Virus record (IMG/VR): IMGVR_UViG_3300045119_000157 | Span: 1-64,000 of that record | DNA from: a virus | Length of the DNA stretch: 64,000 nucleotides | Direction: 5' to 3' (one strand) | Part shown: positions 8,875-25,513 of the stretch, piece by piece | Position numbering within the stretch: position 1 is the stretch's first letter | Layout of the letters: each line of letters starts with the position of its first letter | Program-made: the position numbers and the translations under genes | Notes under the pieces: generated by a model | What the model was told of the DNA's origin: nothing | Databases searched by the model: none | The model's input: only the letters and a program-made list of their open reading frames with translations

Positions 8875-9167
8875 ACACCACCCGTCCTGCACCGAAGAAC
8901 GATGGTCGCTGGCACGGTGTTCAGCCCGTGGAAGCCCGCGAGGCTGGCCTGCGGTGGACGGGACATCTACCGGGCGACTTGAACACGGTGCATGTGTCCC
9001 GGCGCGGCTGGCGCGGAAGGTGGGCGCGATTCAATGCTGACGCCCGCGGCGGACGCGGCGGCTGGGAGTACGAGACCTGCGTGGACTTGCATCGCAAGCG
9101 GAGCGCGGCGATCACCTGCGGTGAGAAGTTGGCGCGCCGCTGGAACGCGAAAGAGTGTCTGAAGTGA
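8871..9167 (+). CDS. Basic hypothetical protein, 98 aa
   Basis: ATG 8871. Strongly basic and rich in Arg, Trp and Gly (SRRGWRGRWARFNADARGG), suggesting nucleic-acid contact, though no motif is diagnostic. Two Cys near the end. It is coupled by GTGA overlap to the larger gene downstream. Confidence 0.6.
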   Translation: MNTTRPAPKNDGRWHGVQPVEAREAGLRWTGHLPGDLNTVHVSRRGWRGRWARFNADARGGRGGWEYETCVDLHRKRSAAITCGEKLARRWNAKECLK

Positions 9168-10078
9168 GCCTCACCGACGAGGCTCTCGACGTGCAGGTCG
9201 AGCTTCTCCGCTGGTTCCACTCGGAACCCGGTGTGCGGTACGCGCAAGCGGAGTGCGACCTCCTGACCGGCGGAACGTTCGAGGCGTACCGCGACGGCCG
9301 AGGTAACCCTGTCGGCGGCGGCGAGTTCTTCCGGGCGATCCTCCGGCAAGGCGCTGCCTACGCGGTGTCCAGCGACGTGGTCGCGGTGATCGACGCGGCC
9401 CGCGAGACGGTCCCGCCGTTCCCGCTGCACGCTACGGACCTCCCGACCGAGGACGGGTTCGTGTGGTTCGAGCAGGCGATCGTGATGTGCGACGACACGC
9501 CGGACGCGAAGCCGATCGTGACGCACGGCTTGTCGTGGTTCACGATCCGGGACATGCACGGCGAGAGCGGACTGGTGATGCTCGGGTGGACGAACCCGAC
9601 CGATCCCCGCGACCACGCCGCGCAGTCATGGACCGGCGACGATGTTCTGACCGCCGCGGGGATCCGGCCTCCCCGCGGGATATGGGCGATGATCATCGGG
9701 ATCTGGCATTTCGATGAGGAGCCGCAGCCGTCGCAGGCGTTCCGGCTGCTGTCCACGTTCCTCCGGTTCATCAACGAACCGTGGCTCTCGGATGAGACAG
9801 AACGCCCGTCCCGTGCGACGGGGCGGAGAGCGGCCAGGGAGCAGCTAGACAGCCCGGTGCGGGTGATCCGCCTGCGGCGTAGCGGGAACCACTCGGAGGG
9901 CGGCACAGGCGATTCCAGCGTGGAATGGTCGCACCGCTGGATGGTGACCGGCCACTGGCGGAACCAGTGGTACGCGACGACCGGGCAGCACCGCCCGAAG
10001 TGGATCCCCGCTCACGTCAAGGGACCGGCAGATAAGCCGCTCGTCGTGAAGGAGACAGTGTTCCGGGTGGACCGTTAG
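9164..10078 (+). CDS. Conserved actinophage protein of unknown function, 304 aa
   Basis: GTG 9164 overlaps the upstream stop; an in-frame GTG at 9155 would add three residues. The C-terminal part (VTGHWRNQWYATTGQHRPKW, then HVKGP and DKPLVVKETVFRV) matches a conserved block I recall at the end of hypothetical proteins in actinobacteria and their phages. The middle is strand and helix mixed with several Trp. No catalytic motif is visible. It is the last plus-strand gene before the convergent minus-strand gene, and the two stop codons overlap by four bases. Confidence 0.65.
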   Translation: MSLTDEALDVQVELLRWFHSEPGVRYAQAECDLLTGGTFEAYRDGRGNPVGGGEFFRAILRQGAAYAVSSDVVAVIDAARETVPPFPLHATDLPTEDGFVWFEQAIVMCDDTPDAKPIVTHGLSWFTIRDMHGESGLVMLGWTNPTDPRDHAAQSWTGDDVLTAAGIRPPRGIWAMIIGIWHFDEEPQPSQAFRLLSTFLRFINEPWLSDETERPSRATGRRAAREQLDSPVRVIRLRRSGNHSEGGTGDSSVEWSHRWMVTGHWRNQWYATTGQHRPKWIPAHVKGPADKPLVVKETVFRVDR

Positions 10079-10797
10079 ATCCTGCGCCGGGAGATCACGT
10101 ACAGGAGCAGCCCGAGCGCGAACACCGCGAGGCCGAGTCCGATCAGCGGCGCGACGTCGAGGCCAGTCCGAGCGAGCGGGACGGTCGTGACAGTCGGGGG
10201 CGTGGTGGGCGGCTGAGTGCCGATCGTGGTCGCCGCGAGCGTGGTGCTCGTGGTCGTGCTGCCCGGCTGCGTGGTCGTCGTCGGCGCGCTGGTCGTCGTG
10301 TCCGGCTGAGTGGTGGTCGTGTCACAGGCGGGCGGCACGCACTGCGGGTTCGTGACCGGCACCGTCGTCGTCCCCTCCGTCGTCGAGGTAGTCGCCTCCG
10401 TGGTCGACGGCGCGGTCGACGTCGTCGCTTCGCTCGTCGTCGTCGGCTGTGTGGTCGACGTGGTCGCCTCGGTCGTGGACGGCGAGGTCGTGGACGGCTG
10501 CGTCGTCTCCGTCGTCGCCTCCGTGGTCGAGGTCACCTCAGACGTCGTACTGGCCTCTGTGGTGCTCGTAGGCGCGCTCGTCGTCGTTGACGGCTGCGTA
10601 GTGCCTGTCGTGCCTGTCGTGGACGTGGACGGCTGTGTCGTGGACGGGTACGTCGTCGTCGAATGGTGATACGTCGTGGTCGTCGTGCCGTACACGCCGC
10701 GGCACCACGCGAACGCAGGCCCGGCACCGCCGATGAGGATCACGGCCGCGACCGCGAACGCTGCGAGTACGAGGAGGCTCCGACGGCGTTCTGTCAT
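10075..10797 (-). CDS. Secreted Thr-rich surface protein with LAxTG sorting signal
   Basis: 240 residues on the minus strand, the only gene so oriented. Residues 1-30 are a signal peptide (RRR, hydrophobic core VLAAFAVAAVILIGGAG, then AFA). Residues about 38-205 are almost entirely Thr, Ser, Pro and Glu, like a mucin. The end has LARTG, then a hydrophobic helix and RRR, the layout of a sortase substrate; LAxTG is the class E motif of high-G+C Gram-positives. The product should be exported and linked to the host wall, and its Thr tract is a plausible O-glycosylation target. A TACCGT -10 six bases before its ATG gives it its own leaderless promoter. Best explained as a gene expressed for the host surface during lysogeny or infection. 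Confidence 0.8.
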   Translation of the reverse strand: MTERRRSLLVLAAFAVAAVILIGGAGPAFAWCRGVYGTTTTTYHHSTTTYPSTTQPSTSTTGTTGTTQPSTTTSAPTSTTEASTTSEVTSTTEATTETTQPSTTSPSTTEATTSTTQPTTTSEATTSTAPSTTEATTSTTEGTTTVPVTNPQCVPPACDTTTTQPDTTTSAPTTTTQPGSTTTSTTLAATTIGTQPPTTPPTVTTVPLARTGLDVAPLIGLGLAVFALGLLLYVISRRRI

Positions 10798-10803
10798 GCC
10801 GCC

Positions 10804-10809
10804 ACGGTA
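10804..10809 (-). promoter_or_regulatory. -10 element of the minus-strand surface gene
   Basis: Read on the minus strand, TACCGT ends six bases before the ATG at 10797. Just upstream, GGGTAG-N4-CTAAAC (10818-10833, plus strand) is a degenerate class II palindrome. Confidence 0.45.
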
Positions 10810-10861
10810 CTCCCGCCGGGTAGCCGCCTAAACTTTCCGCGTAATCCCTGGTCAAAGGGGC

Positions 10862-10890
10862 TGGACAGGATCGTGCACCGGGTGTACGTT
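10862..10890 (+). promoter_or_regulatory. Class I promoter-operator, copy 6, with no coding start
   Basis: TGGACA (10862-10867), 17-bp spacer, TACGTT (10885-10890), operator GTGCACCGGGTGTAC across the spacer. The position where other copies have ATG holds TGT, and the frame beginning at the adjacent TTG closes at once in TAA, so this copy appears to drive a non-coding transcript from about 10897. Confidence 0.75.
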
Positions 10891-10896
10891 GTTGTT

Positions 10897-11245
10897 TGTA
10901 AGCGCATAGCAGCCACCGGGTGCGGGTCGCAGTGACGTCCGCAGCAGCCCCGGAGGCAGCGAACAAGGACTTCGGACCCGTGAGGTGCCCTCGCGAGTAC
11001 GCCAGTGAAACGCCCTACGGCGAGATAGCTCCGGTCAGGAACATCGACCGGATGAGCCTCGACTCATGAAGGTGGTGGAGGCCGAAAGGTAAGGGGAGCG
11101 AAGCGGGAGAACGTCCGAAAGTGTGTACGCGGCGAGAACCGGGGAGTGGCCACGATCCGGGGGAGGAAGCGGAAAGCGAGTACGGCGGCCGGACTAGGCG
11201 ACGGCGCCAGCAGCGGGTAGCTCCCGAGGCTGGCGCCTCGCCGCG
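10897..11245 (+). ncRNA. Candidate structured non-coding RNA
   Basis: About 390 bases without a convincing gene follow a full class I promoter. Paired segments include TGCGGGTC/GAC-CCGCA (10921-10943), TCCGGTC/GACCGGA (11030-11052), ATGAG/CTCAT (11052-11067) and a 14-bp stem at 11197-11242 with one bulge that could be the terminator. Several GAAA or GGAA loops closed by G-C pairs (for example CCGAAAGG near 11081) are typical of folded RNAs. A 44-codon frame from GTG 10932 to 11067 is possible but has no Shine-Dalgarno and overlaps the stems. I cannot match it to a named class. Confidence 0.5.
11197..11242 (+). terminator. Strong hairpin, possible terminator of the non-coding RNA
   Basis: GGCGA-c-GGCGCCAGC pairs with GCTGGCGCC-TCGCC, 14 bp with a single bulged C, and the loop holds an inner CGGG/CCCG pair. 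No U-run follows, which is common for actinobacterial terminators. Confidence 0.5.
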
Positions 11246-11268
11246 TTTACGGGTCATACACACCGTCG

Positions 11269-11285
11269 GGGTAGTGGGCTACCCT
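11269..11285 (+). promoter_or_regulatory. Class II promoter-operator, copy 1
   Basis: Perfect palindrome GGGTAG-N4-CTACCC (11269-11284) overlaps the -10 TACCCT (11280-11285). ATG 11293 follows after seven bases, so the transcript should be leaderless. Confidence 0.65.
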
Positions 11286-11292
11286 GTCGGTC

Positions 11293-11592
11293 ATGCGACA
11301 GATCCTCAGCAAAGGCGTCGTCGACTCTCCCGGCTTTCTCCACTCGAACGTCACCGTCGAAGTCATCAGCGACGACGACGTCAACATGGAAGCCACGGTC
11401 AGGTCGAAGCAGGGCGTCATCCTCGAAATACTGAACGGCCCGTGGACCCGCGAGGGCGACGCGTTCGTGATCCAGACTGACGCCGGGCAGGCTGTGATCA
11501 GCGTGCAGGTCGGCGGCTGCGGCTGCGGCGGGTCACTGTCGACACCGAAAGCGATGGACGGCGCGGCACCCGGCCAGGGCTACCTTCCGTGA
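11293..11592 (+). CDS. Hypothetical protein with CGCGG motif, 99 aa
   Basis: ATG 11293, no Shine-Dalgarno, start set by the class II promoter. The body is strand-rich (VTVEVISDDDVNMEATVRS, then GQAVISVQVGG) and is followed by CGCGGSL and a flexible tail, suggesting a beta sandwich with a metal or disulfide element. No family recognised. It heads a run of coupled genes through 13293. Confidence 0.6.
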   Translation: MRQILSKGVVDSPGFLHSNVTVEVISDDDVNMEATVRSKQGVILEILNGPWTREGDAFVIQTDAGQAVISVQVGGCGCGGSLSTPKAMDGAAPGQGYLP

Positions 11593-11882
11593 CCGACAAC
11601 GGCGACGTCCCCGACCTCGGCGCTATCCGTCGTGCCCGCCAGGACGCCGGACTGTCCGCGGACCCGCCGATGCAGCCGCTGTCCGCGCTCATGGGCGCAG
11701 CGTTCAACCCGGCACCGTTCACGTACCGCGTCGTGAAAGGCGCGACGGCGGTGTCGCCGTGCGTGTACCTGATCGTCGAGACAGCGGTCGGCCGGTTCGC
11801 GGTCGCGATGGACCGCGATGAGGCGGTAAAGATGGGCGGACTGCTGATCGAGGAGGCGTCCGGCCTCGTGGTGCAGCCGTGA
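11589..11882 (+). CDS. Hypothetical protein, 97 aa
   Basis: GTG 11589 overlaps the preceding stop. N-terminal helix (DLGAIRRARQDAGL), then a strand-rich region (FTYRVVKGATAVSPCVYLIV, RFAVAMDRDEAVKMGGLLIEEA). The second half resembles a small alpha-beta domain, possibly a ligand-binding module. No family recognised. Confidence 0.6.
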   Translation: MTDNGDVPDLGAIRRARQDAGLSADPPMQPLSALMGAAFNPAPFTYRVVKGATAVSPCVYLIVETAVGRFAVAMDRDEAVKMGGLLIEEASGLVVQP

Positions 11883-12322
11883 GCACGTACACGGCGGTCA
11901 TGGTGACAACCCCGATGACCGTGGATCCCACAGTGGCCGGGCAGTTGGACACGTTCGATGAGGTGTGGGCGTGCCAGGTGGTGACACCGTCGGGGACGTG
12001 GAAGTTCACGCTCGACGGCGCGGTCATCCCGCCACGCGATGACAGCGACGTCACGGATCTCGTCAACCTGCTCACGCCCGTGACTCCCGCGCCGAGGTAC
12101 GAGTACCAGTGGTGCAACGTCGCGGCGATGAGTCTCATGGAGGAAGGCGCTTCGGGCTGGCGTGTCGTGCCCGGCATCTACCGCAGTGGGGACTACGTCG
12201 ACACGGTCCTGATGGAACGCGTTGTCGCACCGGAGCCGTACGTCGCGCCGGGCGTAGCACCGCCGCTCACGGCCGCTGACCTTCGCGAGGAAGCCGCCCG
12301 AAAGAACAAGTGGCAGCCATGA
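11879..12322 (+). CDS. Hypothetical protein, 147 aa
   Basis: GTG 11879, four-base overlap. The sequence begins with a strand repeat (STYTAVMVTTPMTV), has a central acidic loop and ends with a helix (LTAADLREEAARKNKW). It overlaps the start of the first glycosyltransferase-like gene by four bases, so it may be part of that operon. Function unknown. Confidence 0.6.
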   Translation: MSTYTAVMVTTPMTVDPTVAGQLDTFDEVWACQVVTPSGTWKFTLDGAVIPPRDDSDVTDLVNLLTPVTPAPRYEYQWCNVAAMSLMEEGASGWRVVPGIYRSGDYVDTVLMERVVAPEPYVAPGVAPPLTAADLREEAARKNKWQP

Positions 12323-13293
12323 GCGCCGTGACGTACATCGGGAACTTCAAGCCTCAGCACAGCACCGAGAACGAGATCCTCCGCGCGCTGAACGCTCTCG
12401 GCCATGACGTAACGATCGTGCAGGAGGACGACGAACTCGGCTGGCGGACACTCATCTCCCGAGTCCACAGCACCACGTCCCTGCCGGATGTGGTGCTGTG
12501 GACTCGTACTCGTTCCCTGTCCGACCAGATCGACGAACGGTTGCGCTGGGACACGCTCTACGCGTGCTCTGAACGGGGCATCCCGACGGTCGGCTACCAC
12601 TTGGACCGCTGGTGGGGCTTGGACCGCGAAGCCGAGATCGCGTCGGACCCGTTCTTCCGGGTGTCGCTGCTGTGCACCGCCGACGGCGGACACGACGAGC
12701 AGTGGAAGGACGCGGGGATCACGCACGCATGGTTCCCGCCCGCCATCAGTGAGTTCGAGGTCGGCTGCGGCACGCCGGTCGACGAGTACGCGTGCGACGT
12801 CGCGTTCGTCGGGTCATGGCAGGGCTACGGGCACGCCGAATGGTGGCCGCATCGGGAACGGATGCTCGACGCAGTGTCCGGCTGGTACGGTGACACGTTC
12901 CGCTGCTTCCCTGAGCCGGGCTGCCCGCGTGTCACGGGCATGGACCTCGCGGACCTGTACGCGTCAGCGAAGGTCGTCGTCGGAGATTCGTGTCTCGTGC
13001 CGGGCGTGGACGGCGTGCCGGTCGGGCGGTACTGGTCGGATCGTGTACCGGAGACACTCGGCCGCGGCGGTCTGCTCGTCCACCCGTGGGTCGAGGGGAT
13101 CTCGTCGATCCTGCCGACGTACTTCAACTATCCGCTCAGTGACATGGACGCGCTGCACGAACGGATCGAGATGGTTCTCGGTTGGACGGAGGATCAGCGA
13201 TCAGGCGTGCGGGCTGCGTGCGCGCAGCGGGTAGCGGAGCGGGACACGTACACGGTGAGGATGAAGCAACTGTGGAACCTCCTCGGCCTGTGA
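12319..13293 (+). CDS. CgeB-like GT-B glycosyltransferase
   Basis: 324 residues from ATG 12319. It opens with YIGNFKPQHSTENEILRALN, the typical start of GT-B enzymes of the CgeB/YkvP type in which the N-terminal Rossmann half binds acceptor. Later features are DVVLWTRT, a middle domain hinge around DVAFVGSWQGYGH, and the C-terminal donor site with VPETLGRGGLLVHPWVEGI. These enzymes transfer sugars to proteins or surface glycans. It begins a block holding two GT-B, one GT-A, a two-domain transferase, a glycerophosphotransferase-like gene and two methyltransferases. Confidence 0.8.
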   Translation: MSAVTYIGNFKPQHSTENEILRALNALGHDVTIVQEDDELGWRTLISRVHSTTSLPDVVLWTRTRSLSDQIDERLRWDTLYACSERGIPTVGYHLDRWWGLDREAEIASDPFFRVSLLCTADGGHDEQWKDAGITHAWFPPAISEFEVGCGTPVDEYACDVAFVGSWQGYGHAEWWPHRERMLDAVSGWYGDTFRCFPEPGCPRVTGMDLADLYASAKVVVGDSCLVPGVDGVPVGRYWSDRVPETLGRGGLLVHPWVEGISSILPTYFNYPLSDMDALHERIEMVLGWTEDQRSGVRAACAQRVAERDTYTVRMKQLWNLLGL

Positions 13294-13502
13294 AGCATGA
13301 GCGGCTGACGTGCAGGGACTGTGCGTACTTCTACGACCGGGCTGTCGCCGCCGGGCCGATGACGACAGCGGGTGAGTGCCGCCTGAACCCGCCGATCATC
13401 GACCGTTCGTCGTCGGTGTGGCCGGAAGTCGAGAGCAACGACTGGTGCGGCCAGCTTGTACTCACCCTTCGGAATCGCGAGGCGAGGCCAGGACCGCCGT
13501 GA
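13290..13502 (+). CDS. Small four-cysteine protein
   Basis: 70 residues from GTG 13290. CRDCAYFYD, ECRLNPP and WCGQ supply four Cys in the order CxxC...C...C, with aromatic residues between, which suits a zinc or iron-sulfur site. I recall similar small proteins in phages and in bacterial gene clusters but not a function. It overlaps both neighbours by four bases. Confidence 0.65.
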   Translation: MKHERLTCRDCAYFYDRAVAAGPMTTAGECRLNPPIIDRSSSVWPEVESNDWCGQLVLTLRNREARPGPP

Positions 13503-14170
13503 CTGACCGGCCGATCCGCTACGTCGCGGACGCAGCGTCACCCGCAGCGCAACGCGAACGCGACTGGTGGGACACCCACACGTCCGACGAGTTCGTGTGG
13601 GGCGCAGACGGCGACGGTGTCGCGGCGTGCTGCGCGCTCATCGCCGCCGGGCTACACATCGAACCGGGACACGAAATATTCGACCTCGGCTGCGGACCGG
13701 GACGGCTGCTGGTACCGATGGGCCGCGCGTACCCGGAGGTCGCGTTCACCGGGTTCGACTCGTCGCAGGCGATGATCCACCGCGCATGGTCCGGCTGTTA
13801 CAGCCCGACCCGTAAAGCGGAACTCACCGACGGCCGCTCCATCCCCGCCGGAAACGAATCGTTCGACGGCGGCTGGTGCGTGCTCGTGTTCCAGCACATC
13901 GACACGCTGACGCAGTACGGGTACATCTCCGAGGTCGCGCGGGTGCTGAAGCCGGGCGGCAGGTTCGTAGTGCAGGTCGACGCGTCACCGACGCCGGAGC
14001 ACGGCGACGCGTTCCTGTCGCACACGACCGACGTGGACCGTCTCGCTGACTGGGGTGTCGGCGTCGGGCTGGACACGGTCGACGTGCTGACCGGCGAGAA
14101 AGCGTGGCAGCACGGCCAGCCGGGCGTGTTCGAGCAGTGGGCGTGGATCTACCTTCAGAAGGAGAACTAG
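13499..14170 (+). CDS. SAM-dependent methyltransferase, class I
   Basis: 223 residues from GTG 13499. Motif I is IFDLGCGPGRL (60-70), then an acidic strand end (FTGFDSSQAMI), motif IV-like WCVLVFQHID, and the post-motif VARVLKPGGRFVVQ. This is the Methyltransf_11/25 pattern, usually acting on small molecules or glycans. Placement within the glycosyltransferase block suggests it methylates a sugar or glycosylated protein. The substrate is not knowable from sequence alone. Confidence 0.85.
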   Translation: MTDRPIRYVADAASPAAQRERDWWDTHTSDEFVWGADGDGVAACCALIAAGLHIEPGHEIFDLGCGPGRLLVPMGRAYPEVAFTGFDSSQAMIHRAWSGCYSPTRKAELTDGRSIPAGNESFDGGWCVLVFQHIDTLTQYGYISEVARVLKPGGRFVVQVDASPTPEHGDAFLSHTTDVDRLADWGVGVGLDTVDVLTGEKAWQHGQPGVFEQWAWIYLQKEN

Positions 14171-14172
14171 CG

Positions 14173-14733
14173 ATGACTGATGACCCGATCCCGATCGCAG
14201 AGATCCAGGCGACAGCCGGTCCTGTGCACGGCTGGCCTGCACCGCCGGTCGCGTACACGCCGTACGAGCCGCCGGTAGGCGAGATCCCGCCGATCTCGAA
14301 ACCGCCGAAGCCGAACTGGTCGGTCGTCTCGCTCGTCGTCCTGTCGGTCGCTCTCGTCGCGGCGTTCGCCGTCATAGCCGTCGAGCACGGCAACACGGCA
14401 ACGCAACACGACCACGCCGTCTCGCTCTCATCGTCGCTCTCCGATACACAGTCGAGCCTCTCAGCGACGTCCGATGATCTGACGTCCACGAAGCATGACC
14501 TCACCGGGGCGCTCGCTCAGGCCGACGCCGCGCAGCGGAACTCGACGCAGGCGCACGCAGCGGGACAGCTACTCGACCAGTGCGTGCAGGACGTCGGCGT
14601 GTTCCTTCAGGACATCTCCGTCGAACTGTCGACGTACACGGAGGATCCGGCGGTGACGGCGGAGAGCACGCGTGTCGGGAACGAATGCTCGGAGGCGCGG
14701 CAGGCGTTCGCGTCGCTCGGATACGGCTCGTGA
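14173..14733 (+). CDS. Membrane-anchored coiled-coil protein, 186 aa
   Basis: ATG 14173 with a good Shine-Dalgarno (AAGGAG). A Pro-rich cytoplasmic N-terminus (residues 1-50) precedes one transmembrane helix (WSVVSLVVLSVALVAAFAVI, about 52-71) and an outward Ser/Thr/Asp-rich region with heptad spacing (SSSLSDTQSSLSATSDDL). Cys residues near the end could form a disulfide outside the membrane. Placed within the surface-modification block. No family recognised. Confidence 0.65.
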   Translation: MTDDPIPIAEIQATAGPVHGWPAPPVAYTPYEPPVGEIPPISKPPKPNWSVVSLVVLSVALVAAFAVIAVEHGNTATQHDHAVSLSSSLSDTQSSLSATSDDLTSTKHDLTGALAQADAAQRNSTQAHAAGQLLDQCVQDVGVFLQDISVELSTYTEDPAVTAESTRVGNECSEARQAFASLGYGS

Positions 14734-15281
14734 GCGAACGGATCATCAAGTCGAGCGACGGGACACTGTGCCTACTCCACGACCAGATCATCGGGTTCCG
14801 CCTCGACATGTTGCCCGGCACGTTCCGGATCATGGCGGTCACGAACGGCGGCGCGGACGTGTACGTCGAGCACTTCAACCCGGTGCATGTGACGCCTTAC
14901 GATCCGGCGGGGACGAAGCCGCTGCCGCGTTCGCCCGAGGAAATATGGGCGCAGCGGGAAGCGGAGACGACGCTGGCACGCGAACTCGCCGAAGGGCGGC
15001 TCCGCGAACTGACGGACATGCTCGCTGCTGTGCCGGACCCGGAGCCGATGCTGATCCGTGGTAGCCAGGCCGCGCATCTCGCGTCGAAGGCCGTCGGCTA
15101 CGAGTACCACTTCCGTGATGTCGACTCGATCATCGTGGACGCCGTGTTCGAGTCCGGCTACAAGATGGAAGTCGCGCGCATCGACCACATCCCGCCTGGC
15201 ATGGACGATCCCGCTGCGACCGCTGCTGCTGCTGCTGCCATCTTCGAGGCGGCGTACGTCGAGAGGATCAGAGAGCCGTGA
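14730..15281 (+). CDS. Hypothetical protein, 183 aa
   Basis: GTG 14730 overlaps the previous stop. Strand-rich first half (TLCLLHDQIIGFRLDMLPG, ADVYVEHFNPVHV), a long central helix (AQREAETTLARELAEGRLRE) and an Ala-rich end (ATAAAAAAIFEAAY). No domain recognised. It overlaps the FkbM-type gene downstream, so the pair is probably translated together. Confidence 0.6.
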   Translation: MSERIIKSSDGTLCLLHDQIIGFRLDMLPGTFRIMAVTNGGADVYVEHFNPVHVTPYDPAGTKPLPRSPEEIWAQREAETTLARELAEGRLRELTDMLAAVPDPEPMLIRGSQAAHLASKAVGYEYHFRDVDSIIVDAVFESGYKMEVARIDHIPPGMDDPAATAAAAAAIFEAAYVERIREP

Positions 15282-16114
15282 CTGAGATGCTGCCCACAAC
15301 GATCAACGATCGGTGGACGCTGCTGCTACCAGAGCACCGTCACGCGCGAACCGAATGGCCAGTGTGGGAGAAGGAACGGCTCGCCGCTATGCACGACGTG
15401 ATCGCTCCGCAGACGATGCGTGAGCAGTTGTACAGGTTCTGTTACGACGCTGAAGGGCCGGTCGTGGATCCGCCGGAACTGCCGCGGCATGTCGTGTTCG
15501 ACATCGGTGCCGAGGAGGGCGACTTCCCGGCACTATGGGCGTCATGGGGCGCTGACGTCGTGATGGTCGAACCGAACCCGAAGGTGTGGCCGAACATTCG
15601 TGCCATCTTTGACGCGAACGGTCTACGGGACCGGGTGCGCGGCTGCCATGTCGGGTTCGCTGGCGACGAGTGGCGTGCGGGTAGCTGGAATCCGCAGCCG
15701 GGCGGGAACGACGACCGGCCCGACGACGTGTGCGGTGACTGCGGGTGGCCGCGCTGCGCTCACGGCCCGGTGATCGGCGATCACGGGTTCCTCGTGCTAC
15801 CGGAACGGCCGGAGGTGCCAGTCACCACGATCGACACGCTGGCAGCGGACTACGGCGACCCGACGGTCATCACCATCGACGTCGAGGGCGCCGAACTGAC
15901 GGTCCTCCGCGGCGCGCATGTGACGCTGAAGGAGGCACGGCCAGTCGTGTTCGTGTCCATCCACTTGGATTTGCCGTGGATCGACGAGAAGTACCCCGGC
16001 GACACGGAGGAACGGGTGTACGCGTACATGAACGGTCTCGGGTATGTCGGCACGGAGTTGGCGGTCGACCATGAGAAGCACGTTGAGTTCCGTCACGTCA
16101 CGGTCGGCCAGTGA
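15278..16114 (+). CDS. FkbM-type methyltransferase with a cysteine-rich insert
   Basis: 278 residues from GTG 15278. VFDIGAEEGDF (73-83) is the SAM-binding motif, VVMVEPNP (95-101) the adenosine strand, and TTIDTLAADYGDPTVITIDV with EGAELTVLRGA the diagnostic FkbM C-terminal block. FkbM enzymes O-methylate sugars or polyketides. Between these blocks (about 150-162) lies VCGDCGWPRCAH, three Cys and a His that could hold zinc and that I would not expect in the family. It sits between glycosyltransferases, so methylation of a transferred sugar is likely. Confidence 0.8.
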   Translation: MTEMLPTTINDRWTLLLPEHRHARTEWPVWEKERLAAMHDVIAPQTMREQLYRFCYDAEGPVVDPPELPRHVVFDIGAEEGDFPALWASWGADVVMVEPNPKVWPNIRAIFDANGLRDRVRGCHVGFAGDEWRAGSWNPQPGGNDDRPDDVCGDCGWPRCAHGPVIGDHGFLVLPERPEVPVTTIDTLAADYGDPTVITIDVEGAELTVLRGAHVTLKEARPVVFVSIHLDLPWIDEKYPGDTEERVYAYMNGLGYVGTELAVDHEKHVEFRHVTVGQ

Positions 16115-16197
16115 TCCTGCTGCTGCTGTTCGGGGTCGGCGTGTGGATGATGGTCCACAACGGCCGCAAGATGCGACGGCAGCGCCACAAGCGGTGA
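16111..16197 (+). CDS. Tiny membrane peptide, 28 aa
   Basis: GTG 16111 overlaps the FkbM-type stop. One hydrophobic helix (ILLLLFGVGVWMM) is followed by a strongly basic tail ending MRRQRHKR, so the tail should face the cytoplasm. The same design is seen at 283-348. Role unknown. Confidence 0.5.
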   Translation: MILLLLFGVGVWMMVHNGRKMRRQRHKR

Positions 16198-16233
16198 CCG
16201 CCATCCACGCCTGACCGACGCGGCAATGCCACG

Positions 16234-16440
16234 ATGCGGACCGTGGACGAGGACGAAGCAGCAGCGCGGGACTACTTCGACCGGGACAACGTGTCACCGC
16301 TCAGACCCCGCTCGCTGCACCCGGCAGGCACGGCTCGACGTGAACCGTCACCGTCGCCCGTCTCGTACGCAGTGTTCTTCGCCGGATGCGTCGCGGCGGG
16401 CGTCGTCGGCGCTGTCGTCGTGCACCGGATCATGCGGTGA
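16234..16440 (+). CDS. Small C-terminally anchored membrane protein, 68 aa
   Basis: ATG 16234, with no clear ribosome site. Acidic then basic soluble N-terminus (residues 1-42) followed by one transmembrane helix (SYAVFFAGCVAAGVVGAVVV) and a short basic end. It overlaps the next glycosyltransferase by four bases, so it may help keep an enzyme at the membrane. That role is inference only. Confidence 0.55.
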   Translation: MRTVDEDEAAARDYFDRDNVSPLRPRSLHPAGTARREPSPSPVSYAVFFAGCVAAGVVGAVVVHRIMR

Positions 16441-17108
16441 AGTTCGTCGCGATCCTCCCGTCGATCTACGAGCCGTGGACGGACGTGTGCATCGCGAGCA
16501 TGGGCCGCCCGTTCCGCGACAACCTCGAAGTGTGGGACAACACCGGACACAACCGCGGCGTCGCGGTCGCGTGGAACCACGGTGTGACGATCATGCGGGC
16601 ACGGGAAGCGGACTGGCTGGTGATCGTGTCAGCAGGAATGCGGTTCGGTCTCCCCGGCGGCACGGACTTCCTCGTCCACCTGTCGGAGGCGGGGAAGGGG
16701 ACGTGGGCGGCGGAGGCAGGGTTGCAGCCGCACCGGCCCGGCCACGGCTTCGGGTGGCATCTGATCGGGATCCGGTCCACGACGTTCGACCGGGTCGGCG
16801 TGTTCGACGAGAACTTCTTCGCGTACTACGAGGACAACGACTTCGGGCATCGGGTGCGGTGCGCGACACCGGAGTGGGAGCCTGGCCCGGATCCGTTGTG
16901 GCCGAAGGTCGACCCGGTCGACGCGACGCTGGCGGGGTACGCGCACGGGATCCGGCTCGGCGGCGCAGTGTCGGACCCGAACATCGGCGCCGGTTACTAC
17001 AGGCGAAAGTGGGGTGGACCTCCGTCGTGTGAGGAGTACATGACTCCGTTCGGCGGATCGCACGGGTTGGACTGGTGGCCGGACCCGTACCGGCAGCCCG
17101 CCCGCTAA
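16437..17108 (+). CDS. GT-A (family 2-like) glycosyltransferase
   Basis: 223 residues from GTG 16437. The start KFVAILPSIYEPWTDVCIAS, then the turn LEVWDNTGHNRGVAVAWNHG and the strand DWLVIVSAG, is the nucleotide-sugar binding half of a GT2 fold, with the usual DxD replaced by a less clear acidic site. FDENFFAYYEDNDF about 40 residues before the middle of the C-terminal half matches the GT2 acceptor motif (ED.D). Probably transfers a sugar to a protein or glycan. Last gene of its operon before class I promoter 7. Confidence 0.75.
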   Translation: MKFVAILPSIYEPWTDVCIASMGRPFRDNLEVWDNTGHNRGVAVAWNHGVTIMRAREADWLVIVSAGMRFGLPGGTDFLVHLSEAGKGTWAAEAGLQPHRPGHGFGWHLIGIRSTTFDRVGVFDENFFAYYEDNDFGHRVRCATPEWEPGPDPLWPKVDPVDATLAGYAHGIRLGGAVSDPNIGAGYYRRKWGGPPSCEEYMTPFGGSHGLDWWPDPYRQPAR

Positions 17109-17126
17109 CAAATCCGGGGTTCCCTC

Positions 17127-17155
17127 TGGACAGAGGCGTACACCGGGTGTACGTT
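17127..17155 (+). promoter_or_regulatory. Class I promoter-operator, copy 7
   Basis: TGGACA (17127-17132), 17-bp spacer, TACGTT (17150-17155), perfect operator GTACACCGGGTGTAC (17138-17152). Transcript expected from ATG 17162. Confidence 0.82.
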
Positions 17156-17173
17156 GAGTACATGGAAAAGCCG

Positions 17174-17428
17174 ATGAGCACGCAAGCGATCGACGGGAAG
17201 ACCCTCACGCCGATCACCGCTGACAGCCTCCGCCCGCTGGTGGGCCAGAAGGTCACCCTGCTGATCGACGGTGAGATCACGGTGCGGACGATCACGGTGG
17301 ACTCGACGCCGGACTCGCTCGGCTACCCGATGGAGCAGTTCCTCGGGCTGGCGATCAGCCGGTCACGGCTCCTGGCGACCTCGACGGCGAAGCGGGACTT
17401 CAGCCTCGGCGGAGCGATCGTCGGATGA
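17174..17428 (+). CDS. Small protein of class I cassette 7
   Basis: 84 residues from ATG 17174, or 88 from ATG 17162 (MEKP start). Strand-rich with a central turn (QKVTLLIDGEITVRTITVD), likely a small barrel, and a basic C-terminus. No family recognised. It overlaps the winged-helix-like gene by four bases. Confidence 0.65.
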   Translation: MSTQAIDGKTLTPITADSLRPLVGQKVTLLIDGEITVRTITVDSTPDSLGYPMEQFLGLAISRSRLLATSTAKRDFSLGGAIVG

Positions 17429-17658
17429 GTGCGAACGAGCCGATCGACGCTGTGCTGGACGCCGTCGCTGAGGCGCTGTCCGATCAGCCTGCCAGCCCGT
17501 CACGGATCGCCCGGAAGGCATCCACAGCGGACGCGAAGATCTCGACGACCGACGCTCACGCCGCGCTCCGCTGGCTCGTCGAGCACCAGATGGCCGTCGC
17601 CGTCGGTAACGGCGCGTGGGCCAACTACCGGGAGCGCCGCTTCGGTGAGCGCACCTGA
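17425..17658 (+). CDS. Winged-helix-like protein, 77 aa
   Basis: ATG 17425. Helix (AVLDAVAEALSD), turn and second helix (SPSRIARKAS), then STTDAHAALRWLVEHQMAV with a wing-like strand pair (AVAVGNGAWANYRER). This is the order of a small winged helix-turn-helix, as in MarR-like or phage accessory regulators. It is expressed from a class I promoter, so it could feed back on that system, which is speculation. DNA-binding specificity is not visible. Confidence 0.6.
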   Translation: MSANEPIDAVLDAVAEALSDQPASPSRIARKASTADAKISTTDAHAALRWLVEHQMAVAVGNGAWANYRERRFGERT

Positions 17659-17666
17659 GATTCCCC

Positions 17667-17695
17667 TGGACAGACCCGTACACCGGGTGTATGTT
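17667..17695 (+). promoter_or_regulatory. Class I promoter-operator, copy 8
   Basis: TGGACA (17667-17672), 17-bp spacer, TATGTT (17690-17695), operator GTACACCGGGTGTAT (17678-17692). Transcript expected from ATG 17702. Confidence 0.82.
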
Positions 17696-17713
17696 GTGGA
17701 TATGGAGACACCG

Positions 17714-18463
17714 ATGAGTGATCAGACACCCGCCGAGATCGACGCCGAACTCGCCCGCCTCTGGCAGGACGAGCAGAAGGCCAAGGCGTACGCAGCGTCC
17801 TACCGGGGACATGCCACCAAGCTGAAGGACGCCAAGTACGCGGTCATGGCCGACGAGTACGACGCCAAGGCAGCGGACCTCCGCAGCCAAGCGGCACCGT
17901 TCGAGGCCGAGTTCCGCCGCCGCGGCGGCTGGCTCCGTTACTTCCTCGTGCAGAACGGGAACGGCCACGTCCACCGCGGCATGGACTGCTCGACCTGCTA
18001 CATGAGCACTCAGTTCTCGTGGCTGATCGAACTGGCCGACTGTGACGAGGCCGAGATGATCGTCGAGTTCGGCGAGAAGGCGTGCACGGTCTGCTTCCCC
18101 GACGCTCCGGCGAATCCGGCGTTCCACGCTCCCGGCCGACGCGACGCCGGAGCGATCGCAGCCCGCCAGGCCGAGAAGGCGGAGAAGGCGGCAGCGAAGG
18201 CAGCGAAGGCGCTCCCCGGCGGTCCGGTGGAGGGCAGCTACTCGACGGTGACCACGAAGGTCGCAGCCCGGAACGAACTCAGTAGCGCAGTCCAGTCGTA
18301 CGGTTTCTACGGTGCGTCGAGGGATTACGAGGGGATCGCCCGCCGGATGATCGAGGCGCTCGCCGGGACCGAGATCGACACGGCCACGGTGATCGAGCGG
18401 GCAGCGAAGAAGGCGCTGAAGGACGGCGGGACGCACGACATCCGGAAGGCGCTCGCAGCATGA
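17714..18463 (+). CDS. Class I cassette 8 protein with zinc motif, 249 aa
   Basis: 249 residues from ATG 17714, or 253 from ATG 17702 (METP start). The longest protein under a class I promoter. Residues 1-75 form a long helical region (AELARLWQDEQKAKAYAASY); the middle has HRGMDCSTCYMST and later KACTVC, giving H, CxxC and CxxC for a zinc site; the end is a Lys/Ala-rich helix (EKAEKAAAKAAKAL) and another helical domain. I recall similar long-helix plus zinc proteins in actinophages without known function. It may bind nucleic acid. Confidence 0.65.
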   Translation: MSDQTPAEIDAELARLWQDEQKAKAYAASYRGHATKLKDAKYAVMADEYDAKAADLRSQAAPFEAEFRRRGGWLRYFLVQNGNGHVHRGMDCSTCYMSTQFSWLIELADCDEAEMIVEFGEKACTVCFPDAPANPAFHAPGRRDAGAIAARQAEKAEKAAAKAAKALPGGPVEGSYSTVTTKVAARNELSSAVQSYGFYGASRDYEGIARRMIEALAGTEIDTATVIERAAKKALKDGGTHDIRKALAA

Positions 18464-18639
18464 GCGCCGCTGACCGGCTCTCGGCGCTCCGTGCGGCGAT
18501 CCAGACGGCGGAGGACCGGGCGGAAGCGTGGGAGGCGAAGGGCGGACCGATCCGGCTCCGCAAGGCAGCCGCCGAACGCGAGCACGCCCGCCTGTGGCGG
18601 ATCGAGCTAGCAGCCGCCGAGGGCACGGAAGCCTCGTAG
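18460..18639 (+). CDS. Small coiled-coil protein, 59 aa
   Basis: ATG 18460 overlaps the previous stop. Entirely helical and Ala/Glu/Arg-rich (LSALRAAIQTAEDRAEAW), typical of a short coiled coil. No family recognised. Confidence 0.6.
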   Translation: MSAADRLSALRAAIQTAEDRAEAWEAKGGPIRLRKAAAEREHARLWRIELAAAEGTEAS

Positions 18640-18677
18640 GGGCGCCTAGATCGCCGTGTAACGCCCTGCGGGCTGGC

Positions 18678-18707
18678 GTGCGGGTATCCGTCGGCGGGAA
18701 CCCGCAC
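18678..18707 (+). other. Hairpin before the secreted-protein gene
   Basis: GTGCGGGT (18678-18685) pairs perfectly with ACCCGCAC (18700-18707) across 14 bases. It lies 17 bases before the ATG at 18725 and just upstream of a weak -10 (AAACAT, 18713-18718), so it may be a terminator for the upstream genes or an operator. Confidence 0.45.
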
Positions 18708-18724
18708 CCGGCAAACATGGCGAT

Positions 18725-20767
18725 ATGAGAGTCAGCCGCCGTTCCGCCCTCCTCGCCGCTGTAGCCGTTCTCGCCGCGGCGGTCGCGGTCGGGTCGCTCA
18801 CGGAAGGCACCGCTGGTGCCACGCCCGCCTACGTGCAGGGCACCGCAGTCGAAGCCCGCACAGGGACGACCGCGTCCGTGTCCTTCGGCGCGCCGGTCAC
18901 ACCCGGCGATCTCGTCGTGGTCTACTCGACGTGGGACAACAGCGGCGCAGCGGCAGTGTCCGACTCGCAGCACGACACGTTCCCCGTCGCCGCCGCACAG
19001 CAGCCGTGGGCGCACGGCTCCGGGCAGGTCTGGTACACGATCGCTCACGGCGGCACGACCGCAGTGACGGCCACGTTCGCGACCCCGGTGACGCAGTTCG
19101 GTCTGGTGTACGTGATGGAGTACAGCGGCGTCGACCAGGCGGTCCCGTTCGACACGTCCCGGTCAGCGTCAGGCGGAGGCGCGGCGATGTCGTCCGGTGT
19201 CGCGACGACGACCGGCCCGGACCTCGTCGTCGGCGCTGGCGCATCCGACAACACCGTCACCGCGAAGGCGTCCAGCTACACGTCCCGGTCGCTGGCGTTC
19301 GGGAACATCATCGAGGACACCCGCCTCAACAACGCGGGGACGCCCGTCGCGACCGCGACGCAGAACGGGTCGTCATGGGTCATGCAGCTAGCCGCGTTCC
19401 ATGCCGCACCGGCAGGCACGACCACGAGCACAGCGACGACGCAACCGTCCACGACGTCCACGACGGCCACGACGCTGCCGACGACTACCACCACGCAGCC
19501 GGGCAGCTTCACGCCGGACTCCTGCGCGTTCACGACGTTCTGCGATGCGTTCCAGACACTGAACCCCGGCGGACGGAGCGGCGACCTCGACGAGACGAAG
19601 TGGTCGTTCTCCCGTGTCCAGCAGAACACGAACCCGACGCAGGGACTCGTCAACAACTACGCCCCTGTCAACGCCGACTTCTGCATCACGAAACAGGTCC
19701 GCCTCGCGGACAACGACAGCTTCATCTGCGGCGCCCAGTTCGGTGAATCGAATCACTGGATGGAGGCGATGAACGACAACGAGCAGTACGCCTCGCAGGG
19801 CGCACGGATCCTTCAGCCGTTCGACTTCGCCAACCGCACCGGGACCATCGACTTCAGCGTTGACGCCAAGAGCGAGGGGACGCACTCGTCGTGGCCTGAC
19901 ATCTTCATCGCCGCCGACCCGGTCCAGCAGCCGCACGAAGACTTCCCCGGCACGCACATCTACCCGCGTGAGGGCGTCCAGATCTCGCTCAACGCCGACT
20001 GGTGTCCCGGCCAGTACACCGGCAACAAGGCGACACAGACCTTCACGTCGAACGCCGTCCGAGACATCAACGTGTACGACAACTATCAGGAGAGCCAGTC
20101 GAACGATCACTCGTCGTCGTGCTTCTCGACGGCGCCGGACATGGCGAACCACTTCCAGATCCGCATCTCACAGACACGCGTCGAGGTGTGGGCCTCGAAC
20201 GACGACGGCTCGAACTTCTCGCTCCGGCTCGCCCGCAACGTCAACCTCGGGTTCACCCGCGGCTACGTGTCCTTCGAACACGCGCAGTACAACGCCGACA
20301 AGTTCAACGACATGAACCCGACGACGTACCACTGGCACGCCATCAGCTTCGACGGTCCCGTGCTTCCGCTGGATCGTGACTATCAGGTCCCCGACGCGCT
20401 GGTGCCACGCCCGGACGGGACAGTGAACCTCGGCTACCAGACGCCGACGCAGACGTTCTCGCTGCCGGGCGGTAACCCGTCGGGCGCGTCGAAGGCGTAC
20501 GTCACCGCGAACGTGTACTGGTACTCGTCGCCGCTCGCGCTCACCGTCACCGTGAACGGTCACGCGTACACGGCTCCCGCGCCTGATCCGAACACGAATC
20601 AGGATCCGTTCGGGGTCAGTCACCGTTACCAGTGGAGCTACATCCTGCTGCCCGTGAACCTGGCGGATCTGGCGGCGGGGACGAACACGGTGCAGATCGC
20701 GAACACGGGCTGCTCGGATCAGTGCCCGACGGTCGCGAACGTCGACTTGGAGGTCGTCCCCGGATAA
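18725..20767 (+). CDS. Secreted two-domain protein with Thr-rich linker, 680 aa
   Basis: ATG 18725. Residues 1-35 are a signal peptide (RVSRRSALLAAVAVLAAAVA, then AGATPA). Residues about 36-230 are a beta-sandwich-like domain (SVSFGAPVTPGDLVVVYST), then a Thr/Pro linker (residues 233-262, TTTSTATTQPSTTSTTA and so on) as in the minus-strand surface protein. Residues about 265-680 are strand-rich with Trp, Asn and Gly loops resembling concanavalin-like carbohydrate-binding proteins, with Cys pairs for disulfides outside the cell. Phages seldom encode exported proteins this large. A glycan-binding or hydrolase role is likely but no catalytic pair is certain. Confidence 0.75.
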   Translation: MRVSRRSALLAAVAVLAAAVAVGSLTEGTAGATPAYVQGTAVEARTGTTASVSFGAPVTPGDLVVVYSTWDNSGAAAVSDSQHDTFPVAAAQQPWAHGSGQVWYTIAHGGTTAVTATFATPVTQFGLVYVMEYSGVDQAVPFDTSRSASGGGAAMSSGVATTTGPDLVVGAGASDNTVTAKASSYTSRSLAFGNIIEDTRLNNAGTPVATATQNGSSWVMQLAAFHAAPAGTTTSTATTQPSTTSTTATTLPTTTTTQPGSFTPDSCAFTTFCDAFQTLNPGGRSGDLDETKWSFSRVQQNTNPTQGLVNNYAPVNADFCITKQVRLADNDSFICGAQFGESNHWMEAMNDNEQYASQGARILQPFDFANRTGTIDFSVDAKSEGTHSSWPDIFIAADPVQQPHEDFPGTHIYPREGVQISLNADWCPGQYTGNKATQTFTSNAVRDINVYDNYQESQSNDHSSSCFSTAPDMANHFQIRISQTRVEVWASNDDGSNFSLRLARNVNLGFTRGYVSFEHAQYNADKFNDMNPTTYHWHAISFDGPVLPLDRDYQVPDALVPRPDGTVNLGYQTPTQTFSLPGGNPSGASKAYVTANVYWYSSPLALTVTVNGHAYTAPAPDPNTNQDPFGVSHRYQWSYILLPVNLADLAAGTNTVQIANTGCSDQCPTVANVDLEVVPG

Positions 20768-20772
20768 GGGAC

Positions 20773-20801
20773 TGGACAACGGTGTGCACCGGGTGTACGT
20801 T
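20773..20801 (+). promoter_or_regulatory. Class I promoter-operator, copy 9
   Basis: TGGACA (20773-20778), 17-bp spacer, TACGTT (20796-20801), with GTGCACCGGGTGTAC in the spacer. Transcript expected from ATG 20808. Confidence 0.8.
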
Positions 20802-20807
20802 GTGGGC

Positions 20808-21095
20808 ATGGAGCGCACAGCCAACACCAGCAGCGGGAACTTCCCGCAGAAAGGGGACACCATGTCCTTCTCAGTGCAGGCCGCTTGCCCCATCTGCCGC
20901 GAGGCGGTCGTCGAGACGACCGATCCCGGCTTCCACGCCTGCCAGGTCGAAGTCCCGACCTGTCCCGGCTGCCGGTTCGAGTCCGGCATCACGTCGGCCA
21001 CTGTCCGCCGGACAGCGTTCATGGCGCTGATCGGCATGGCAGCGAAGCCGGAGACGGTGCTCATGCACCGTGACGGTCTGGTGGCGTTCGGATGA
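20808..21095 (+). CDS. Zinc-ribbon protein with two possible starts
   Basis: 95 residues from the leaderless ATG 20808, or 77 from ATG 20862, which has a strong Shine-Dalgarno AAGGGG (20851-20856). The shorter form begins at the recognisable domain: CPIC, then HACQVEVPTCPGCRFESG, four Cys with a CxxC pair on each side. The extra N-terminus is polar. Between the two starts lies the inverted repeat GCGGGAA/TTCCCGC (20833-20847), which in RNA would fold just before the Shine-Dalgarno, so translation of the short form could be controlled. Function of the ribbon is unknown. Confidence 0.65.
   Translation: MERTANTSSGNFPQKGDTMSFSVQAACPICREAVVETTDPGFHACQVEVPTCPGCRFESGITSATVRRTAFMALIGMAAKPETVLMHRDGLVAFG
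20833..20847 (+). promoter_or_regulatory. Inverted repeat before an internal ribosome site
   Basis: GCGGGAA-c-TTCCCGC, seven-base arms. In the mRNA from promoter 9 this would fold (five pairs, five-base loop) immediately before the AAGGGG ribosome site of ATG 20862. Confidence 0.45.
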
Positions 21096-21229
21096 GCGCC
21101 AAGTTCATCGTCGTGTGCGACGACTACCGCATCGAGTGCTCGACGTTGGAGCAGGCGGAACGGCGGCTCGCCGAGATCGAGCGCGCCGGTCACTGCCGCA
21201 ACGAGCATCAGATCAAGCCGGTCGGGTAG
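21092..21229 (+). CDS. Small hypothetical protein, 45 aa
   Basis: ATG 21092 overlaps the previous stop. A strand (AKFIVVCDDYRIECS) and a helix (TLEQAERRLAEIERAG) with Cys and His near the end give a compact alpha-beta unit. Its TAG stop is part of the class II palindrome of the next gene. Confidence 0.6.
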   Translation: MSAKFIVVCDDYRIECSTLEQAERRLAEIERAGHCRNEHQIKPVG

Positions 21230-21240
21230 GCGGCTACCCT
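21224..21240 (+). promoter_or_regulatory. Class II promoter-operator, copy 2
   Basis: Perfect GGGTAG-N4-CTACCC (21224-21239) overlapping TACCCT (21235-21240). GTG 21248 follows after seven bases. Confidence 0.65.
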
Positions 21241-21247
21241 GCCCGGC

Positions 21248-22987
21248 GTGATCCCGGTCCTGTGGACGACGTTCCATCCCGACGCGCCGTGCCGCGGCTA
21301 CTGGGATCAGGGTTGGCTTGAACGTGTCCTATCTGGCCGGGTGCGGCGCACACGCCACGAGTTCGAGTCGGTCGAGGTGCGTTCGCCTGCACACTGGCCG
21401 CATCCAGAGATCGGCGCTGTCGTGGTGCTCCCTGGCAGCTACAACGCTGACCGGATCGCTGAGGTCAACGCGTTCATCGACCGCCTGTCGTGGGCGGTCC
21501 TGTTCATCACTTCTGATGAGGAGTCGCTGTTCCCGGTCGAGCAGCTACGTCACCCGCGGCTCATCGTGTACGTCGAGCCGGACATGGAGCGCCTGTACGA
21601 CGACGGCGTCCGGTTCCTCGGGATGCAGTGCAAGGCCGACACGCATGACCTGCTCGCTGAACGGCAGCCGGAGATGGCGTACCGGAAGGTCGACGTGTTC
21701 TTCGCCGGGCAGGTGACGCACGCACGCCGGGAGCGGTGCGCTGACGCGGTGCTGGACGCACGCCGGTACGGGCTGTCCGTGGATCAGGTGTTCACCGAGT
21801 CGTTCACGGCGGGACTGCCACGCGAGGAGTACCTGACTGCGCTGGCGGGCGCACGGGTCGCGCCGTGCCCGTCCGGTCCCGCGATCGTGGACTCGTTCCG
21901 GCTGTGGGAAGCGTTAGAGGCCGGGTGCGTGCCGGTCGCTGACGCCCGGAGGGAAGGGTCGAAGGAGGGCTACTGGCAGCGTGCGTTCGGTGACCCGGCG
22001 TTCCCGATCCTCGATGACTGGTCAGAGTTCCCGCTGGTGGCGCGCCGGATCGTGGACAACTGGCCGTCGGACGCGAACCGGGTGCAGGCGTGGTGGCAGC
22101 GGTGGCAGCGTGACTTCACCGTCTCGTTGGACGACACGATCGACCGTCTGTCGGGTGTGGGCACGCCGGTCGCGCTGGCTGACCTGTTGACGGTGATGGT
22201 GCCGTCGTCACCGATCGAGTCGCACCCGTCGACTGCGGTGCTGGACGAAACGCTCGACTCAATCGAGGAGCGCCTGCCGGGTGTCGAGGTGATCGTCGGG
22301 TTCGACGGTGTCCGCCCGGAGCAGGCCAAGTTCGTAGGCGTGTACGGCGAGTACGTGAACCGTGCGCTCACCGGGTTCTCGTTCGGCCGCGGGAACGTGA
22401 CGCCGGTCGTGCTGCCGGAGTGGGGTCACCAGGCGAACGTGACGAGGGCGATGCTCGATCTGGTGCGGACGCCCGTGGTGCTGTTCGTAGAGCATGACTG
22501 CCCGTTACAGGGCGACATCCCGTTCGACGCGCTCACGGGCCTTGTGGCGGCCGGAGAAGCGAACGTGGTGCGCCTTCTGCACGAGGCGAACATTCTGGAA
22601 CCGCACCGGCATCTGATGCTCGACGACGAGCCACGCGACGTGGCCGGTGTCCCGCTGGTCGGGACGATCCAGTGGTCACAGCGCCCGCATCTGGCGTCGA
22701 CCGCGTACTACCGGCACATCTTGCACCGCTACTTCGGGCGTGAGAGCCGAACGATGATCGAGGACGTCATGCACGGTGTCGTCCAGCGGGCAGCGGAGGA
22801 CGGCGGCTGGGGAATGGACCGGATCTTCATTTACGCGCCGCCGGGTGACATGAAACGGTCGACGACGTCGGACGGGCGCGGGTCGGAACCGAAGTTCGAC
22901 ATGCTCGTCGCGTACGACGGGGATCAGCCGGAGTGGGCGCCACGGCCGACGGTCGAGACGGACGAGTACCGGCAGCCCGCGTCGTGA
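21248..22987 (+). CDS. Two-domain glycosyltransferase (exostosin-like plus GT-A)
   Basis: 579 residues from GTG 21248. The first 300 resemble exostosin/GT47 enzymes: VDVFFAGQVTHARRERC (148-164), and CPSGPAIVDSFRLWEALEAG with CVPV (208-230), the donor-site signature. The last 270 form a second, GT-A-like domain (LADLLTVMVPSSP, VEVIVGFDGVRP, then VLFVEHDCP in place of DxD). Two transferase domains in one chain suggest it adds two sugars in series or a repeating unit. It carries its own class II operator, separate from the other glycosylation genes. Confidence 0.75.
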   Translation: MIPVLWTTFHPDAPCRGYWDQGWLERVLSGRVRRTRHEFESVEVRSPAHWPHPEIGAVVVLPGSYNADRIAEVNAFIDRLSWAVLFITSDEESLFPVEQLRHPRLIVYVEPDMERLYDDGVRFLGMQCKADTHDLLAERQPEMAYRKVDVFFAGQVTHARRERCADAVLDARRYGLSVDQVFTESFTAGLPREEYLTALAGARVAPCPSGPAIVDSFRLWEALEAGCVPVADARREGSKEGYWQRAFGDPAFPILDDWSEFPLVARRIVDNWPSDANRVQAWWQRWQRDFTVSLDDTIDRLSGVGTPVALADLLTVMVPSSPIESHPSTAVLDETLDSIEERLPGVEVIVGFDGVRPEQAKFVGVYGEYVNRALTGFSFGRGNVTPVVLPEWGHQANVTRAMLDLVRTPVVLFVEHDCPLQGDIPFDALTGLVAAGEANVVRLLHEANILEPHRHLMLDDEPRDVAGVPLVGTIQWSQRPHLASTAYYRHILHRYFGRESRTMIEDVMHGVVQRAAEDGGWGMDRIFIYAPPGDMKRSTTSDGRGSEPKFDMLVAYDGDQPEWAPRPTVETDEYRQPAS

Positions 22988-23005
22988 ACGTCCACCCGGC
23001 CTGAC

Positions 23006-23022
23006 AGGTAGCGGGCTACCCT
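23006..23022 (+). promoter_or_regulatory. Class II promoter-operator, copy 3
   Basis: AGGTAG-N4-CTACCC (five perfect base pairs of the arm) overlapping TACCCT (23017-23022). GTG 23030 follows after seven bases. Confidence 0.6.
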
Positions 23023-23029
23023 CCCGGTC

Positions 23030-23806: not shown

Positions 23807-23997
23807 TCCGCTACTACGTCCGCTGCGCTACATGCGCCGTCGAGTACGAGTTGACGCGGGAGATCATCCACGGGCCGTTCCCGCTCGAAGATGGCGGTGT
23901 GTTACGTGAGGCCGTCTGCCCGCGGGACAAGACGATGATGTGGCGGCAGGTCGACTATCCCGACGTGGAACCTGAGATCCATCGGCGGGTCCAGTGA
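23803..23997 (+). CDS. Small zinc-ribbon protein, 64 aa
   Basis: GTG 23803 overlaps the preceding stop. CATCAVEYE and later AVCPRDK give CxxC and a third Cys, with Tyr and Trp between, as in small zinc ribbons. Overlaps the next gene by four bases. Confidence 0.6.
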   Translation: MIRYYVRCATCAVEYELTREIIHGPFPLEDGGVLREAVCPRDKTMMWRQVDYPDVEPEIHRRVQ

Positions 23998-24395: not shown

Positions 24396-24397
24396 TC

Positions 24398-25509: not shown

Positions 25510-25513
25510 GGGC

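Follow-up and report, generated by a model that had tools for sequence, protein, structure and literature searches.

Locus and genome setting

A single gene on the reverse strand, at 10075-10797, encodes a putative Thr-rich surface protein that ends in an LARTG sorting signal. The window analyzed here is the first 64 kb of the 83,578-bp IMG/VR virus record IMGVR_UViG_3300045119_000157 (G000). The gene and the features around it are as follows.

9164-10078, plus strand: convergent neighbor phrog_15934 (unknown function), with a 4-base overlap with the end of the surface protein gene
10075-10797, minus strand: coding sequence of the predicted Thr-rich, LARTG-terminated surface protein, 240 amino acids, ATG at 10797
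10078-10161, minus strand: hydrophobic helix and RRRI positive tail, residues 213-240 (from the sequence)
10162-10176, minus strand: LARTG sorting pentapeptide (LAxTG, class E type), residues 208-212 (from the sequence and a match to NF058582)
10177-10689, minus strand: Thr/Ser/Pro-rich region, residues 37-207 (from composition and a codon test)
10708-10797, minus strand: predicted signal peptide, residues 1-30 (MTERRRSLLVLAAFAVAAVILIGGAGPAFA), with a basic n-region, hydrophobic core, and A-x-A (from sequence features)
10862-10888, plus strand: one copy of the phage's repeated promoter/operator element, directed away from the surface protein gene

An earlier, sequence-only reading had placed the gene at 10075-10809. 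The end at 10075 holds, but the start moves to the ATG at 10797, within an open frame that extends upstream to 10827. The same reading was right about the opposite-strand placement: a simple codon-model gene caller found 119 genes, 116 of them on the plus strand, and the surface protein gene is the sole confident minus-strand call, the other two being very short and low-scoring.

G000 has a GC content of 66.6%, and in the window ARAGORN detected no tRNA. Because its first 126 bases recur near the record end, G000 is probably the nearly complete genome of a phage, assembled as a circle. In the last 143 bases, this 126-bp repeat precedes a short stretch of the record start in inverted orientation, which is probably an assembly effect at the circular junction. 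Matches to the portal protein came from 848 phage records; of those tallied by name, nearly all are actinobacteriophages, which makes an actinobacterium the most likely host. A profile search of genome contigs with the terminase alignment returned three distant, uninformative bacterial matches and assigned no host.

In G000, a glycosyltransferase and methyltransferase cassette, including an FkbM type, lies between terminase and portal (12319-27782) and is partly conserved in relatives. Beyond the window, consecutive genes for QueD-like, QueE-like (radical SAM), and GTP cyclohydrolase I proteins (L003:9100-11109; genome 72.1-74.1 kb) have an arrangement that suits 7-deazaguanine modification of DNA. 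At 58215-58910 (plus strand), on the downstream side of the tail genes, lies a gene for a membrane protein whose C-terminal tail is Thr-rich (TTTTTTTTTAPCKRKSGRC). A second secreted protein, g34 (18725-20767, plus strand; 680 amino acids), has a signal peptide and a Thr-rich linker, a layout that resembles the LysM-like plus Thr-linker protein of the related phage G016 (29507-30793). A structure model of g34 was discarded for its low quality (mean pLDDT, 34).

Protein architecture and sorting signal

The signal peptide, Thr/Ser/Pro tract, and LARTG-helix-RRR end that the sequence-only reading described are all present, so the protein carries the elements of a sortase substrate at both ends: a signal peptide, and a C-terminal pentapeptide followed by a hydrophobic segment and a positive tail. 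By eye, the signal peptide has the n-region TERRR, a hydrophobic core, and AFA/W at residue 30. The pentapeptide LARTG fits the LAXTG motif of class E substrates. Between these signals, residues 31-206 include 80 Thr, 21 Ser, and 19 Pro (120 of the 176 ectodomain residues; the whole protein has 82 Thr), which makes for an extended, mucin-like ectodomain. The tract is broken by a short CVPPAC segment, the Cys residues number three in all (32, 153, and 158), and we found no recognizable domain in the ectodomain, binding domains included.

The Thr tract is a feature of the protein rather than a DNA repeat, because Thr codon usage is like that of the genome (ACG/ACC, 0.61/0.24 in the gene versus 0.56/0.30 in the genome) and identical neighboring Thr codons are not in excess (18 observed, 19.8 expected). 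An artifact of DNA repeat expansion is thereby ruled out, and the codon usage of 10075-10797 fits a real gene.

A six-frame search of the 83.6-kb genome with the NCBIfam LAXTG model NF058582 gave a single match, at 10081-10179 on the minus strand (E = 2.1e-5, 22 bits); across searches, the model scored the sorting signal at 17.8 to 22 bits, below its curated 27-bit cutoff. The LPXTG model TIGR01167 had no match in G000. When a strict sorting-signal filter was applied to 26,631 distinct open reading frames from 279 loci, two passed, against 0.8 expected from shuffled tails; these were the gene at 10075-10797 and one in a related phage. Searches with the surface protein gene found no homolog in any phage searched, at a sensitivity limited by the low-complexity filter.

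Promoter elements

The gene had been thought to have its own promoter. However, a consensus scan of 9000-11600 found no sigma70-like site for it, and the nearby copy of the repeated element, at 10862-10888, faces away. This element consists of TGGACA, 5 nt, a 15-bp palindrome (GTRCACCGGGTGTAC), and then a TACGTT-like -10; at most copies, a gene starts with GGARAARCCGATG a few bases after the -10. Copies occur at 1338, 6568, 7121, 7689, 8671, 10862, 17127, 17667, 20773, 25514, and 30434, with more beyond 64 kb, and there are 10 exact palindromes genome-wide. The layout looks like that of a phage regulon whose operator lies in the spacer. No other viral contig had the exact element, and probing with it yielded no close relatives.

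Recurrence in related phages

Relatives were gathered by means of the neighbor gene, the terminase, the g52 structural protein, and a glycosyltransferase. We scanned 44 records (the whole records of 39 relatives plus G000, G001, G003, G015, and G016) for L(P/A)xT(G/A/S) followed by a hydrophobic segment and a basic tail, counting as Thr-rich those proteins with at least 14 Thr in 40 residues. Eight of the 44 have a Thr-rich open reading frame with L(P/A)xTG, helix, and tail: G000 (LARTG), G016 (LPATG), G028 (LPKTG), G030 (LPTTG), G038 (LPVTG), and G050, G053, and G058 (all LPFTG). In the shuffled control, one tail passed among 21,553 open reading frames. Motif matches in G027, G032, G034, and G059, with at most 7 Thr in 40, were rejected as chance or antisense.

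The G028 and G030 proteins exceed the TIGR01167 cutoff, and the G028 signal peptide is weaker than the others. The ectodomains differ, with a folded-looking segment before the stalk in G016, G030, and G058, while the G038 protein is nearly all Thr-rich, like that of G000. The position of the gene varies as well: it lies between the portal and capsid-region genes in G016, and in G053 and G058 it precedes the portal gene. In all seven relatives, unlike G000, the anchored gene runs in the direction of its neighbors, so the reverse strand is peculiar to G000.

On a tree of homologs of the capsid-region protein g52, the trait needs seven changes for seven tips, at least four of them forced by well-supported branches. 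This scatter indicates that the trait has been repeatedly gained, lost, or exchanged. Many of the relatives' records are fragments, and G029 and G030 have identical g52, so the counts are approximate lower bounds. The gene is absent from most related records, many of them fragmentary, and is thus not essential. Relatives that keep the gene without a signal or sorting motif had been named in the sequence-only reading as evidence against it; such a case appeared only in G001, a distant phage, where a Thr-rich secreted protein lacking the motif (L022:10407-11036, minus strand) is convergent to the same phrog_15934 neighbor.

A phage-encoded sortase

One of the eight phages carries a putative sortase as well.

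G028 (IMGVR_UViG_3300049825_000338) 62530-63018, minus strand: predicted secreted sortase, class E-like, 162 amino acids, with signal peptide and PF04203

The protein matches Sortase PF04203 at E = 1.7e-13, and its best NCBIfam model is the class E sortase (47.8 bits, below that model's cutoff). By eye, the positions expected for the catalytic triad are occupied by His (in LAGHR), Cys (in VLQC), and a downstream Arg. The 106-kb G028 therefore has both a sortase and an LPKTG Thr-rich protein in one genome. Among the other 49 records searched, which include G000, none yielded a sortase; most of these phages would accordingly rely on the sortase of the host.

LAxTG proteins in cultured phages

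Similar C termini occur in cultured phages that are not close relatives of G000, in proteins annotated simply as “membrane” or “hypothetical.” Microbacterium phage Zooman gp245 (“membrane protein”), an 861-amino-acid, multi-domain-looking protein, has a signal peptide and an LAATG-helix-RRKRVTE end. Its relatives have LAQTG in A3Wally, LATTG in Pumpernickel and FuzzBuster, LAATG in Magritte, and LAQTG in Micrococcus phage Kurnik. A signal peptide is usual in this group; the Pumpernickel protein, from its annotated start, has none. Like the G000 gene, these are actinobacteriophage genes for an LAxTG-helix-basic tail, but the proteins are larger (458 to 877 amino acids), have folded-looking segments, and show no detectable sequence similarity to the G000 protein. 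The copy in Microbacterium phage SM23 (L428:960-2897) has lost the tail after LATTG, has no helix, and is apparently frameshifted or degraded. An Xkcd426 match to the LPXTG model (14.7 bits, below the cutoff) had no convincing sorting signal and was dropped.

Proposed mechanism and alternatives

We propose that the protein would be exported by Sec and retained at the membrane through the C-terminal helix and the RRR stop, where a host class E sortase (SrtE) would cut LARTG between Thr and Gly and link the protein to peptidoglycan. Class E sortases recognize LAXTG in soil actinobacteria (PMC5148588). Wall fixation by the host sortase, as the sequence-only reading had suggested, is supported by the complete sorting signal, by its occurrence in seven other related phages, and by the G028 sortase; judged from these sequences, a host class E sortase very likely anchors the protein. 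The roughly 175-residue Thr-rich ectodomain would probably be O-mannosylated by host Pmt, a dense glycosylation that we infer purely by analogy with actinobacterial Pmt biology. Given this probable O-mannosylation and the lack of a recognizable domain, the ectodomain would project as a hydrophilic brush. Pmt and Ppm1 are required for phiC31 infection of Streptomyces (PMC5882110), so mannosylated proteins can matter for adsorption. A brush made during infection would mask receptors on the infected cell, and this masking, the most useful thing it could do during lytic growth, would exclude superinfecting phages and cut the loss of progeny to debris. We put forward the shielding role tentatively, as a possibility somewhat below even. 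The reading as a whole, a phage-made sortase substrate that forms a wall-anchored brush and shields the infected host, may be correct, but we hesitate to call it probable.

The sequence-only reading favored expression in a lysogen, and it is true that the gene is opposite in strand to nearly all others, that prophage-borne LPXTG proteins such as SasX are known, and that G000 has one weak ParB-like match. By such lysogenic conversion, expression from a prophage or plasmid-like prophage would alter the surface of the surviving host. Yet the whole 83.6-kb record has no match to an integrase (PF00589) or serine recombinase (PF00239), the 2 of 50 relatives that have an integrase lack the anchored gene, and the scan described above found no dedicated promoter. 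Expression in a lysogen is further undercut by the co-directional genes of the seven relatives and by the LAxTG proteins of cultured phages. Extrachromosomal lysogeny of G000 is possible; conversion as the explanation of the gene is unlikely. Capture of a host gene of no benefit to the phage would account for the scattered distribution and for the absence of a homolog from all phages searched, but such recent, idle cargo sits poorly with codon usage that matches the phage genome, with signals intact at both ends, with an architecture that recurs in at least eight related phages and in unrelated ones, and with a phage (G028) that brings a sortase too. We consider it quite unlikely.

Two further alternatives concern the role of the ectodomain. 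A wall-anchored stalk could stick infected cells to surfaces or to each other so that progeny reach new hosts. The folded-looking ectodomains of G016, G030, and G058 and the multi-domain look of Zooman gp245 would suit an adhesin or aggregation factor of this kind, whereas the G000 protein has no recognizable binding domain, and brushes rich in Thr tend to be repellent rather than adhesive; for G000 we think this improbable. Alternatively, the Thr-rich protein, if glycosylated, could mimic a host glycoprotein receptor and trap competing phages unproductively, in line with the mannosylated receptor implied by the phiC31 requirement for Pmt and Ppm1 (PMC5882110). However, if the producing cell displayed such a decoy on its wall, progeny would be trapped too, and no receptor homology was shown, so we hold this to be very unlikely.

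Comparison with known systems

The G000 protein is a well-formed predicted sortase substrate and part of a wider actinobacteriophage trait that has apparently been overlooked. A literature search turned up no account of sortases encoded by phages, or of LPXTG proteins in actinobacteriophages, although such accounts may exist nonetheless. Phage-borne, wall-anchored proteins as a kind are already known from prophages, such as the SasX carrier, but these were few and from pathogens. Here, they recur in an actinobacteriophage lineage mostly without integrases, with diverse motifs and ectodomains and with a phage-borne sortase. The recurrence in scattered relatives and in unrelated cultured phages points to re-coating of infected cells by some phages. 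More broadly, actinobacteriophages, some without an integrase, may have repeatedly acquired sortase substrates, in one case with a sortase of their own, to take over the surface during infection by re-coating the infected wall with covalently anchored, mucin-like proteins; we see this as a real possibility, though one still short of probable. Because cultured Microbacterium phages are among the carriers, sortase-mediated wall remodeling during infection is testable in laboratory strains.

SasX and SesI are reportedly LPXTG surface proteins of staphylococcal phiSPbeta-like prophages and thus, like the G000 gene product, phage-borne proteins of the sortase-anchored type. SasX, however, belongs to an integrated prophage and has LPXTG, whereas G000 has LAxTG, a Thr-rich ectodomain, and no integrase found. 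The Sie lipoproteins of lactococcal and streptococcal phages are small, membrane- or lipid-anchored proteins that block DNA entry. They too are phage-encoded, exported, and displayed on the infected cell, but the G000 protein is predicted to be anchored covalently to the wall, and any exclusion by it is hypothetical. In its signals, the G000 protein is comparable to the LAXTG class E substrates of actinobacteria such as the Streptomyces chaplins ChpA-C (PMC5148588), which likewise have a signal peptide, LAxTG, a helix, and a basic tail, and the enzyme would be the same, a host class E sortase. The chaplins are host-encoded and have hydrophobic ectodomains, whereas the G000 protein is phage-encoded and its ectodomain is Thr-rich and hydrophilic.
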